Made by a program: the position numbers and the translations under genes. A model generated the notes under the pieces. That model ran no database searches. It was given only the letters and a program-made list of their open reading frames with translations, and was not told the DNA's origin. This document shows positions 1,586 to 24,082 of a stretch of DNA of 32,490 nucleotides, piece after piece. Each line of letters begins with the position of its first letter. Positions within the stretch are counted from its first letter, which is position 1. This DNA is from Minisyncoccota bacterium (lineage in GTDB: Bacteria > Patescibacteriota > Minisyncoccia > Phycocordibacterales > UBA9973): positions 1 to 32,490 of the forward strand of contig JAGOPQ010000005.1 of NCBI GenBank assembly GCA_017991915.1, written 5' to 3'.

Positions 1586-1614
1586 TTGATTTTATATCAT
1601 TTTTTGTGTAGAAT
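1586..1614 (+). promoter_or_regulatory. Promoter of the tRNA-Leu(CAA)-murA-miaA unit
   Basis: TTGATT (1586-1591), a 17 nt spacer and TAGAAT (1609-1614) form a good sigma70-type promoter, with transcription expected to start near 1621. The -35 sequence TTGATT and the 17 nt spacing are the same as at the tRNA-Ile/atp promoter (24082-24054). Confidence 0.65.
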
Positions 1615-1737: not shown

Positions 1738-1821
1738 GCCCAGGTGGCGGAATTGGTAGACGCGATAGACTCAAAATCTATTGATGGCAACATCATGAGA
1801 GTTCGATTCTCTCCCTGGGCA
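1738..1821 (+). tRNA. tRNA-Leu(CAA)
   Basis: An 84 nt class II tRNA. The acceptor stem GCCCAGG/CCTGGGC has discriminator A (1821). The D arm is GCG/CGC, the anticodon stem ATAGA/TCTAT holds loop CTCAAAA (anticodon CAA, reading UUG), the long variable arm is TGATG-GCAA-CATCA, and the T arm is GAGAG-TTCGATT-CTCTC. CCA is not encoded. The murA ATG starts at 1823, after a single C. A36-A37-A38 makes this tRNA a likely substrate of MiaA, which is encoded two genes downstream in the same unit. Confidence 0.95.
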
Positions 1822-1822
1822 C

Positions 1823-3157
1823 ATGTTTAACATGAAAAAATCAAACGGAAATAATAATAACTTTGAGATAGAAGGTGGAAGAAAACTTTCTGGCTCAATC
1901 ACCACCAACACTTCTAAAAATGGATCTGTTGGTCTTCTGTGTGCTTCACTTTTAAACAAAGGTAAGACAACCTTGCACGGAATTTCTAGAATAGAAGAAG
2001 TGTACAGAGTCATGGAGGTCATGGAAAGTATCGGCGTAAAGCTAAAGTGGACTGGTCCACAAACCTTGGAGATAACTCCCCCAGCCGAATTTAAAATGGA
2101 AACTCTAGACAAAGAAGGTGCTATAAAAACCAGAAGTATCATCATGTTCGCTGGTCCACTTATACACCACTTAAAATCTTTCTCTTTACCACACGCCCAA
2201 GGATGCAAGCTAGGCAAGCGAACCGTCAGCGCTCATATATATGGATTGGAAGAGATGGGTATCAGAGTAAAAGTAACCAATCAAAATTACGAAATCAGCC
2301 ACAAGAAAATGCGCCCAACTGAACTCGTCATGTATGAATCCGGCGACACAGCTTGTGAGAACTTGTTGACTGCGGCTGCCTTAATCCCAGGCAAAACAAC
2401 AATCAAATTTGCTACTTCAAACTACATGGTCCAAGAAGTTTGCTTCTTTTTGGAAAAATTGGGCGTCAAGGTGGATGGTATCGGCTCGAACACCATCTCA
2501 GTGCACGGAATAAATGAGATCAACCAAGACGTAGAGTATTGGAACAGTGAAGATCCGATAGAATCCATGATGTGGATCACCGCAGCCATAGTGACTGATT
2601 CCAAACTAGAAATAAAAAAATGCCCGATAGATTTTCTTGAACTTGAACTTTATAAATTAGAGAAAATGGGGCTGAAGTATAAAGTTTCCAAAACTTATAA
2701 ATCAAAAAATGGACGCACAGATCTAGCTGACTTGGTCATAATGCCATCCAAGCTAAAAGCCCTAGAAGATAAAATAGAAGCTAGACCTTACCCAGGTATA
2801 AACATAGACAACTTACCTTTCTTTGGACTAATCGCGGCTTGTGCCCAGGGTCAGACATTGATCCACGACTGGGTCTACGAAAACCGCGCTATATACCTGA
2901 CCGAATTGAACCGCCTAGGTGGCACTGTACTACTTGCCGACCCACACAGAGTTTTCGTACAAGGACCGACAGAATGGAAGCCCGCGCAAGTGGTATGCCC
3001 CCCAGCACTAAGGCCTTCTGTGGTCATCATGCTGGCGATGCTAGCAGCCAATGGTAAATCTGTTCTTAGAAATGTCTACATGATAAATCGTGGCTATGAA
3101 ACTATTGTGAAGAGATTCAACAGTATCGGTGCCAAGATAAAAGAAACTTCAAACTAG
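1823..3157 (+). CDS. murA: UDP-N-acetylglucosamine 1-carboxyvinyltransferase
   Basis: MurA transfers enolpyruvate from PEP to UDP-GlcNAc, the first committed step of peptidoglycan synthesis in the cytosol. The 444 aa product has the EPSP-synthase-like fold. The catalytic loop Cys is present at about residue 128 (PHAQGCKLGKR), so fosfomycin sensitivity is possible. The substrate-binding Lys-Asn pair is at 32-33 (TSKNG). The sequence is divergent from textbook MurA but the length is normal. The start is either ATG 1823, 1 nt after the mature tRNA-Leu, or ATG 1832; neither has an SD. The gene ends at 3157, touching miaA, and is probably cotranscribed with both the tRNA and miaA. Confidence 0.88.
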   Translation: MFNMKKSNGNNNNFEIEGGRKLSGSITTNTSKNGSVGLLCASLLNKGKTTLHGISRIEEVYRVMEVMESIGVKLKWTGPQTLEITPPAEFKMETLDKEGAIKTRSIIMFAGPLIHHLKSFSLPHAQGCKLGKRTVSAHIYGLEEMGIRVKVTNQNYEISHKKMRPTELVMYESGDTACENLLTAAALIPGKTTIKFATSNYMVQEVCFFLEKLGVKVDGIGSNTISVHGINEINQDVEYWNSEDPIESMMWITAAIVTDSKLEIKKCPIDFLELELYKLEKMGLKYKVSKTYKSKNGRTDLADLVIMPSKLKALEDKIEARPYPGINIDNLPFFGLIAACAQGQTLIHDWVYENRAIYLTELNRLGGTVLLADPHRVFVQGPTEWKPAQVVCPPALRPSVVIMLAMLAANGKSVLRNVYMINRGYETIVKRFNSIGAKIKETSN

Positions 3158-6369: not shown

Positions 6370-6855
6370 TCAGTTTTGAATTTTTCTCCCCTTAAAATAC
6401 CAATAACCATACAGTCCGAGGATTAAAGCAATATTTGGAATAAACATCATTGGCTGACCCCAAGATATGCCGTCAACTGAAAAGTCTGAAATCGGCCACA
6501 AAAAAGGTGTTGGAAAAAAAGCAGCGTCATGGGTGGGTATATCAACTAAAATATGAAGTGGCCAAGCCAAAGCAAGCTTAGCAAAGTGCTTATAACCCAA
6601 AAACCAGAGAACTGTAAGAAAAACACTAAATACAACAAGACTATGCGAAAAATTATAGATACTGAAAACATATACTGGAATCGTCTCTATGTTTGGTTGT
6701 CCTAATCCGTCATTAGAGACCAAGCTCATTATGAAAAATGCACCGAAAGCTAAGAGATCAGGTGTAATGCCAAATAAAAAAGCCGTAATATAATCACGCT
6801 TGCTAAGGCGACCAAATGCTACCCCACCATATAGACCATGGGAAAAAATGTCCAT
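6370..6855 (-). CDS. YdjM/DUF457-like membrane protein (putative metal-dependent hydrolase)
   Basis: The 161 aa product resembles the inner-membrane YdjM/DUF457 family, named as predicted membrane-bound metal-dependent hydrolases; the biochemical role is unproven. It starts MDIFSHGLYGG. It has a PDLLAF motif where the family has a conserved P-D, an NFSHSLVVF segment with the conserved H-S, and a PLHILVDIPTHD segment carrying a likely H/D metal site. About four membrane helices are visible. ATG 6855 lies one base after the discriminator of tRNA-Trp with no SD, so translation must begin on an mRNA released by tRNA processing or on the unprocessed transcript. It ends with TGA. Confidence 0.7.
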   Translation of the reverse strand: MDIFSHGLYGGVAFGRLSKRDYITAFLFGITPDLLAFGAFFIMSLVSNDGLGQPNIETIPVYVFSIYNFSHSLVVFSVFLTVLWFLGYKHFAKLALAWPLHILVDIPTHDAAFFPTPFLWPISDFSVDGISWGQPMMFIPNIALILGLYGYWYFKGRKIQN

Positions 6856-6856
6856 G

Positions 6857-6927
6857 CGGGCGATGAGAGAATCGAACTCCCGACATCGGTTTTGGAGACC
6901 GAAGTTATGCCACTTAACTAATCGCCC
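6857..6927 (-). tRNA. tRNA-Trp(CCA)
   Basis: A 71 nt tRNA on the minus strand. The acceptor stem is GGGCGAT/ATCGCCC with discriminator G (6857). The D arm is GTTA/TAAC, the anticodon stem TCGGT/ACCGA has loop CTCCAAA (anticodon CCA), and the T arm GGGAG-TTCGATT-CTCTC contains one G-U pair. The variable loop is 4 nt. CCA is not encoded, and the next ATG begins after a single C. Confidence 0.95.
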
Positions 6928-6976: not shown

Positions 6977-6985
6977 AGTATACCA
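6977..6985 (-). promoter_or_regulatory. Extended -10 of tRNA-Trp
   Basis: TGG-TATACT on the minus strand, just after rpmG, closely matches TGG-TATAGT before tRNA-Ile. The start is expected at about 6970-6972. No good -35 is seen, so this is a moderate call. Confidence 0.45.
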
Positions 6986-22780: not shown

Positions 22781-23680
22781 TTAATTACTAATAATAATCG
22801 ACTCTTTTAATTTCGGTTGGTGTTCTTCTTCGTGGTGCTCGTCGTCGTGATCAGTGGATGCAATGGTGAAATAAACTACAAGTAGTATAGAGAAGATAAG
22901 CGCCTGAATTATTCCTACGATTATTTCAAGAAATAGAAATGGTACGGGAACTATGTATGCCACTATCGCCGCCATAGAAACCAAAAGCACTTCACCTGCA
23001 AATACGTTTCCGAAAAGACGGAAAGAAAGTGAGGCAACTTTTGCAAACTCACCTATGACTTCAAGTAAACCGACAAAGAACGTAATTGGAGCCACGACTA
23101 TCACGGTTTTATCGTGCTTAATCTTCTTAAAGATGCCTCCAAGTGCCTTTAGATTAACATATTTATTGAAAGTTTTCCAGATACCGATAGAGAATACTCC
23201 AAACAAGTTCGCCCCTAAAACAGACATAATGGCCAAGGCTACTGTGGTATTTACATCAGCTGTACCACCACGGAGGAATGGAATAAAGGTTGGGCCGTGG
23301 TCTCCTGTCTCAATTAAGCCAAAACCTCCGAAGGGCATTATACCCAACCAATTGTTTACTAGAATAAAAAAGAAAACGGAGATAGCGATTGGGAAAACTT
23401 TTAGAGAAATAGCTCGGTTGTTTGTCACCTGATCACATAAATCTAGAGCGCTCTCAACTACTACTTCAAAAATATTTTGTACTTTTCCAGGAACTGTCTT
23501 TAGTTTGGATCGCAAAACTGCAGATAAAATTACAATAATCAAAACAGCCACCCAACTCGTAACTAGCGCGTTGGTGATGGTAAAACTTTTATAGTGAGCT
23601 ATTGGTTCAGCAAACAGAGTCACTTCGTGGCTGATTGTCTCTTCTTTGGCTTCGTGTGTTGTGTTTTCTTGTATGCTCAT
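22781..23680 (-). CDS. atpB: ATP synthase subunit a
   Basis: The stator channel subunit, 299 aa, with about five to six membrane helices. The essential Arg is in VASLSFRLFGNVFAGEVLL. IVVVAPITFFVGLLEVIGEFAK and the last helix PFLFLEIIVGIIQALIFSILLVVYFT match the family. The C-terminus carries an unusual tail rich in His, Asp and Glu (about 277-290, TDHDDEHHEEEHQP), which is cytosolic or external depending on topology and could bind metal. It starts 3 nt after the atpZ/I-like gene. Confidence 0.95.
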   Translation of the reverse strand: MSIQENTTHEAKEETISHEVTLFAEPIAHYKSFTITNALVTSWVAVLIIVILSAVLRSKLKTVPGKVQNIFEVVVESALDLCDQVTNNRAISLKVFPIAISVFFFILVNNWLGIMPFGGFGLIETGDHGPTFIPFLRGGTADVNTTVALAIMSVLGANLFGVFSIGIWKTFNKYVNLKALGGIFKKIKHDKTVIVVAPITFFVGLLEVIGEFAKVASLSFRLFGNVFAGEVLLVSMAAIVAYIVPVPFLFLEIIVGIIQALIFSILLVVYFTIASTDHDDEHHEEEHQPKLKESIIISN

Positions 23681-23683
23681 GAT

Positions 23684-23944
23684 TTATTTATTAATATTTT
23701 GCTGATTTTCTGCTTCAATTCGCTTCATATACCTACTAACAACTCTGACAATCCCAGAACAGGAAACAAAAAAAGCAACTGCAGTAAGTCCTAGGAAAAT
23801 AAATGGTTTGGTTTGAAAATGCTTGTCTAGAGCTTTTCCAGCAATCAAAGCCAAAACTATGGGTACCACTACCCAAGTAGAAACCTCACTGAAAATCTCT
23901 GCCGCTGGTTCCCACCATGGAATTTTACTTTTATTATCTTCCAT
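23684..23944 (-). CDS. AtpZ/AtpI-like F-ATPase assembly protein
   Basis: The 86 aa protein has two membrane helices (about 20-36 and 48-68). It shows the family pattern WWEPAAEIFSEVSTWVVVPIVLALIAGKALDKHF followed by a short loop and FIFLGLTAVAFFVSCSGIVRVV. Proteins of this group assist c-ring assembly or Mg/Ca transport next to Fo. ATG 23944 comes one base after the discriminator of tRNA-Ile, so the whole atp mRNA is predicted to begin at this start codon after tRNA release. No SD is present. Confidence 0.8.
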   Translation of the reverse strand: MEDNKSKIPWWEPAAEIFSEVSTWVVVPIVLALIAGKALDKHFQTKPFIFLGLTAVAFFVSCSGIVRVVSRYMKRIEAENQQNINK

Positions 23945-23945
23945 G

Positions 23946-24017
23946 TGAGTGTGGATGGAATCGGACCATCGACCTCTGTCTTATCAGGACAGCGTTCTAC
24001 CACTGAACTACACACTC
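23946..24017 (-). tRNA. tRNA-Ile(GAT)
   Basis: A 72 nt tRNA on the minus strand. The acceptor stem is GAGTGTG/CACACTC with discriminator A (23946). The D arm is GTTC-AGTGGTA-GAAC, the anticodon stem CTGTC/GACAG has loop CTGATAA (anticodon GAT), the variable loop is AGGTC, and the T arm is GATGG-TCCGATT-CCATC. CCA is not encoded. It is the first element of the atp transcription unit. Confidence 0.95.
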
Positions 24018-24053: not shown

Positions 24054-24082
24054 ACTATACCAAAAAGGGTTGCTTTAATCAA
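24054..24082 (-). promoter_or_regulatory. Promoter of the tRNA-Ile/atp/rsmI unit
   Basis: TTGATT (24082-24077), a 17 nt spacer and TATAGT (24059-24054) preceded by TGG. The same -35 and spacing occur at the tRNA-Leu promoter. It is the only good promoter I see for the nine atp genes. Confidence 0.7.

Follow-up and report, generated by a model that had tools for sequence, protein, structure and literature searches.

tRNA 3′ ends as a possible source of leaderless mRNA 5′ ends in a Minisyncoccota lineage

We found that three of three tRNA genes in the window (the whole stretch of 32,490 nucleotides analysed here, contig C15 of a genome of 566,686 bases in 34 contigs) run through the acceptor stem, the discriminator and a single C into the ATG of an open reading frame (ORF). 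On balance, we favor the reading that, in this lineage, tRNA 3′ processing that does not depend on RNase Z can replace the promoter in setting leaderless 5′ ends. For such loci, we infer co-transcription of tRNA and ORF, the position of the cut, the enzyme and leaderless translation.

Relatives were gathered via AtpB, and those with names are mostly Candidatus Nomurabacteria. The genomes compared include two complete congeners (G004 and G010), 520 kb of an order-level genome (G014) and a member of another family within the order (L149). Counts refer to a three-genome set (the window's own genome and the two complete congeners, 101 tRNAs) or to a four-genome set that adds the order-level genome. 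tRNAs were detected with ARAGORN and Rfam; a loose T-arm-to-ATG pattern was discarded as a survey tool for its excessive noise.

Three tRNA genes that adjoin open reading frames

tRNA-Leu(CAA) occupies 1738–1821 of the plus strand (ARAGORN, Rfam), with acceptor stem GCCCAGG/CCTGGGC and discriminator A1821. C1822 follows on the same strand, and the ATG at 1823 opens a MurA-like ORF of 444 aa (1823–3157, plus strand; EPSP_synthase, PF00275), for which the ATG at 1832 is a second possible start. The order tRNA-Leu then murA is also found in relatives, at offsets of 4–14. By its sequence, TAGAAT at 1609–1614 (plus strand; context TTTTGTGTAGAATCTGTGG) probably serves as the −10 box for transcription of tRNA-Leu and murA. 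Upstream of tRNA-Leu, TGTGTAGAATGTGTG also occurs in the relatives L096, L100, L105 and L110, and the promoter motif TGTGTAGAAT is common to the window and relatives.

A structured element lies ahead of tRNA-Leu at 1632–1735, and its outer stem (GCCCAGG/CCTGGGC) equals the tRNA-Leu acceptor stem. Folding of the precursor predicts that the element and tRNA-Leu may exchange strands. The element has no Rfam match and was not seen in the relatives examined, among which L100 and L114 have other hairpins at this place.

The other two loci are on the minus strand. At the first, a likely −10 box (TATACT, 6977–6982, assigned by sequence) precedes tRNA-Trp(CCA) at 6857–6927 (ARAGORN, Rfam; acceptor stem GGGCGAT/ATCGCCC, discriminator G6857), which is followed by C6856 and by the ATG at 6855 of a YdjM-like membrane protein ORF of 161 aa (6370–6855; PF04307, below cut-off). 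This start is well supported, as homologues that have no upstream tRNA start at the same Met; in one homologue with no tRNA in front (L124), TATAAT stands at −12. At the second, TATAGT at 24054–24059 is by sequence the probable −10 box for tRNA-Ile and the atp genes, and tRNA-Ile(GAT) at 23946–24017 (ARAGORN, Rfam; acceptor stem GAGTGTG/CACACTC, discriminator A23946) is followed by C23945 and by the ATG at 23944 of an AtpI-like ORF of 86 aa (23684–23944; ATPase_gene1, PF09527). The next gene of the atp operon encodes AtpB (F0 subunit a; 22781–23680, minus strand). The AtpI-like start is also well supported, as atpI starts at offsets of 1–7 in several other loci. A preliminary description of this DNA had reported discriminator-C-ATG at the three tRNAs, with neither an encoded CCA nor a Shine–Dalgarno (SD) sequence, and the ARAGORN and Rfam positions, the acceptor stems and the sequence bear it out.

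We found that C follows the discriminator in 27/27 tRNAs of the window's own genome (21 as CA, 4 as CCA and 2 as CT), in 36/37 and 37/37 tRNAs of the two complete congeners and in 21/21 of the order-level genome, which amounts to 100/101 tRNAs in the three congeneric genomes and 121/122 in four. Behind tRNA-like T-arms with a fixed pattern in six genomes of the order, C and non-C stand at 142:10. Hence, since C is near-invariant behind discriminators, its conservation identifies it as tRNA base C74; the tRNA genes of the lineage retain this first C of CCA and, as read from them, mostly do not encode the CA. C1822, which had been taken for a spacer, is the encoded C74, as are C6856 and C23945. 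A role of the C as a one-base mRNA leader was ruled out, as it is fixed behind tRNAs, and the proposal that the messages start with a single C fails with it: a cut after C74 would give 5′-AUG.

In a small sample of loci from other candidate phyla, the full CCA is encoded in 14/20. A class-level survey (e.g. G131, G110, G090 and G075) showed some families that often lack even C74, and T commonly comes directly after the discriminator in these families.

The preliminary description had held that the one-base spacing is hard to ascribe to chance and had called for a search for excess tRNA-ATG abutment in relatives. Given C74 and base composition, exact C-ATG is found at 3/27 tRNAs of the own genome against 1.1 expected (P = 0.10) and at 3/101 tRNAs of the three genomes against 3.3 expected; a search for the C-ATG pattern in 60 relatives gave ~1.5 matches per genome. 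Once C74 is fixed, the exact spacing is at expectation, the three genomes hold no such excess, and the window's three of three amounts to a local cluster. Gene starts behind tRNAs in the three genomes are denser close in (16 at offsets 1–9 and 13 at 10–45). However, gaps of 1–9 nt are no commoner from tRNA to gene (16/50) than between non-overlapping protein genes (304/1030, P = 0.75), which rules out tight packing specific to tRNAs. Hence, because C-ATG is at expectation and the gaps match those between protein genes, the one-base gap is the tightest packing that C74 permits and no separately selected signal.

Translation starts and the promoters of atpI

SD sequences are not enriched before the starts of the window's own genome (13/222 starts vs 27/222 in the control stretch), nor are SD-like tetramers before starts in G004. 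We found instead a −10 box at −13 to −11 in 26/100 operon-first genes of the own genome (5–7 in shifted controls) and a sharp TATAAT peak at −12 from ATG in G004; G010 has the same −10 signal as the own genome, and the signal is weaker in G014. As the 16S rRNA of the relatives diverges from a strict helix-45 pattern, which gave zero matches, the gene was located by BLAST with E. coli 16S rRNA. Its 3′ tail is GTGGAATAATTCAATTTGAAAA in G004 (C1, after 65,450) and G010 (C1, after 16,505), and its E. coli counterpart is GGATCACCTCCTTA. In L149 the tail (after 225) is GTGGAATATTTCAATTTGAAAA, one change from that of the two congeners. The CCUCC anti-SD is thus missing from the 16S rRNA of G004, G010 and L149, which represent two families of the order; the anti-SD loss is data from relatives, as the 16S gene of the own genome lies outside the 359 kb examined. 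Taken from these sequences, the lineage appears to initiate without SD pairing, with mRNA 5′ ends at or near the start codon.

CCUCC-less 16S rRNA has been published for other candidate phyla (PMC10783764), where the examples given include the SD-scarce Campbellbacteria, Wolfebacteria, Absconditabacteria and Peribacter. The examples in the main-text table of that paper do not include Nomurabacteria, and the portions of it used here do not link anti-SD loss to the arrangement of tRNA genes. Beyond that paper, the open-licence literature that we consulted yielded no study of Parcubacteria/Patescibacteria dealing with SD, anti-SD or leaderless initiation.

The atpI loci offer a natural comparison. 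tRNA-Ile abuts atpI (1–7 nt) in 14 distinct loci, several of which besides the window have offset 1. Counting distinct loci only, TATA[ACT]T within ≤62 nt upstream is found at 0/14 abutting and 22/37 separated atpI loci (P = 7e-5), a contrast that is partly built in, as the tRNA sequence occupies the upstream space of the abutting loci. Hence, a tRNA neighbour goes with the absence of atpI's own −10 box. The earlier claim that tRNA excision creates leaderless messages is borne out in part: this absence, the lack of SD, the leaderless promoter spacing and the lack of a promoter between tRNA and ORF support it, and the single-C 5′ end does not stand. Adjacency of tRNA to atpI and to murA recurs in the genus and is not universal; the proposed link of tRNA processing to the expression of the wall and the ATP synthase genes is something we infer.

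Leaderless is not the sole mode, given that the atp leaders at separated loci are ~24 nt. Many of these loci read −10 box, 6–7 nt, hairpin AAAGCC..GGCTTT, U-rich run and start codon. In L211, L213, L223 and L225, tRNA-Ile and its C are followed directly by a hairpin (AAGGC..GCCTT), a U-rich run and ATG, so that, on sequence, a cut after C74 would give nearly the promoter-type 5′ end of the separated loci.

A short hairpin of the AAAGCC..GGCTTT type with a U-rich run stands immediately before the atpI start codon in L063, L065, L066, L069, L209, L227 and L229. This leader hairpin resembles a terminator or attenuator at the extreme 5′ end of the atp mRNA.

tRNA 3′ processing and rival explanations

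The cut that had been proposed was that of RNase Z, and the enzyme was not found. The RNase Z profile TIGR02651 stays below cut-off in 21/21 genomes of relatives and is above it in 9/14 control genomes; its weak matches are RNase J, a beta-CASP protein of ~460 aa and others. A motif scan of the two complete congeners also found no RNase Z. The proteins with HxHxDH in these two genomes are RNase J and an aCPSF1-like beta-CASP protein, and G010 has one distant MBL protein in addition (43 bits vs a cut-off of 293). The beta-CASP protein scores below cut-off with both of its nearest models, aCPSF1 and type VII Cas14. We consider this conserved aCPSF1-like protein the best candidate for the tRNA 3′ cutter. 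A CCA-adding enzyme is present (PF01743), and RNase R-like and PNPase-like ORFs were detected by motif only.

In the window's own genome, the aCPSF1-like beta-CASP protein corresponds to an open frame of 459 aa (G000:C27:45694), and most relatives have similar proteins.

In the mechanism that we propose, the usual gene would have its mRNA 5′ end fixed by a promoter, with the −10 box 12 nt ahead of the ATG. Where an ORF adjoins a tRNA, the promoter would have no room, transcription would come from the promoter of the tRNA, and excision of the tRNA would set the 5′ end of the downstream mRNA. Since C74 is kept in nearly every tRNA gene, the cut is likelier just after C74; it would probably leave 5′-AUG, and the CCA-adding enzyme would supply CA. 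By analogy and sequence, such a cut fits the conservation of C74, the CCA-adding enzyme and a Streptomyces precedent (PMC4681348), and the 5′-AUG would match what promoters of the lineage seem to produce.

Several points count against this mechanism, among them the built-in part of the atpI contrast, the 16S data from relatives and the ~24-nt leaders of separated atp loci. Packing alone accounts for the spacing, with short gaps no commoner behind tRNAs, and a 3′-to-5′ exonuclease of the RNase R or PNPase type might finish the tRNA end at the cost of the mRNA, which it would degrade. The main rival is accordingly compaction plus exonucleolytic tRNA maturation. If compaction were all, the genes would be packed in the ordinary way, the C would be C74, the ATG would follow by chance, and the ORFs would be expressed by read-through or some other translation, with no constructive role of tRNA processing. 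The gap distribution equals that between protein genes, exact C-ATG is at expectation, and offsets range over 1–14 among homologous loci, all of which suits compaction. However, with leaderless promoter spacing and relatives that lack the anti-SD, an AUG behind a folded tRNA would be a poor start, and atpI loci without the tRNA often have a promoter instead. We judge compaction alone unlikely, while giving it real weight.

Cleavage by RNase Z after the discriminator, with C-AUG as the mRNA and punctuation of the mitochondrial kind, agrees with the anatomy of the three loci and with a CCA that is encoded in only 4/27 own tRNAs. It is very improbable, as no RNase Z came over cut-off in 21 relatives or turned up by motif in two complete genomes, and a cut after the discriminator gives no evident reason for the conservation of C74. 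The lineage commonly has leaderless promoters, so promoters hidden inside the tRNA genes could start the ORFs leaderless without any processing; yet 18/18 genes that start ≤9 nt behind a tRNA have no −10 box at −14 to −11, and 14/14 abutting atpI loci have none within 62 nt, which makes hidden promoters the most doubtful of these explanations. We thus return to processing after C74 by a nuclease other than RNase Z as the preferred reading.

Known systems and genes behind tRNAs

The arrangement is like tRNA punctuation in animal mitochondria, in that the ORF abuts the tRNA, CCA is not (fully) encoded, there is no SD, the small-subunit rRNA (here that of relatives) lacks an anti-SD, and leaderless mRNA is presumed. 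ORFs lie directly behind the tRNA end at the three window loci and, for atpI, in several loci elsewhere, and translation without SD and anti-SD agrees with the unenriched SD and the three CCUCC-less 16S rRNAs. Exact abutment is not above chance (101 tRNAs) and, unlike in mitochondria, RNase Z/ELAC2 was not found (21 genomes by profile, two complete ones by motif) and the first C of CCA is kept. Here, moreover, the genome is bacterial, only a minority of its genes follow tRNAs, promoters are found at many of the rest, and processing is putative. Bacterial leaderless genes (PMC3160421, PMC5397173) likewise have a −10 box ~12 nt ahead of the ATG and no SD, a spacing seen in 26/100 operon-first genes of the own genome and at the −12 peak of G004; the difference is that some 5′ ends here would come from tRNA removal and not from transcription start. 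In S. coelicolor, tRNAs that encode CCA undergo cleavage between their two Cs (PMC4681348), which places the 3′ processing site, as proposed here, immediately past C74. Those tRNA genes contain the whole CCA, and the cleavage is not presented as a source of mRNA ends, whereas in the lineage studied here C74 is mostly the sole encoded base of CCA and ORFs adjoin the tRNAs.

If the proposal is true, the mRNA-end logic of mitochondria would be found in a bacterium whose ribosomes have converged on that state, with no anti-SD and a leaderless start. Two questions follow: what enzyme forms tRNA 3′ ends in bacteria that lack RNase Z and mostly do not encode CCA, and why C74 persists in nearly all tRNA genes of the lineage. 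More tentatively, in an order without anti-SD and RNase Z, cleavage after C74 by another nuclease (the candidate being aCPSF1-like) might serve as an alternative to promoters for the leaderless mRNAs of the atp operon, murA, t6A genes and the CCA-adding enzyme, and so couple tRNA maturation to the expression of its machinery.

The gene of the CCA-adding enzyme lies 9–13 nt behind tRNA-Arg or tRNA-Gly in three genomes, an arrangement that might let tRNA maturation and this enzyme feed back on each other. Also behind tRNAs are tsaD and the genes of a Sua5/YrdC protein, a SpoU methylase, a pseudouridine synthase and a VanY-like protein; the series of RNA-maturation genes in this position is suggestive. 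The tRNAs ahead of the CCA-adding enzyme gene are tRNA-Arg(tcg) in G004 (C3, 3,645), tRNA-Arg(tcg) in the window's own genome (G000:C5, 39,990) and tRNA-Gly(gcc) in G010.
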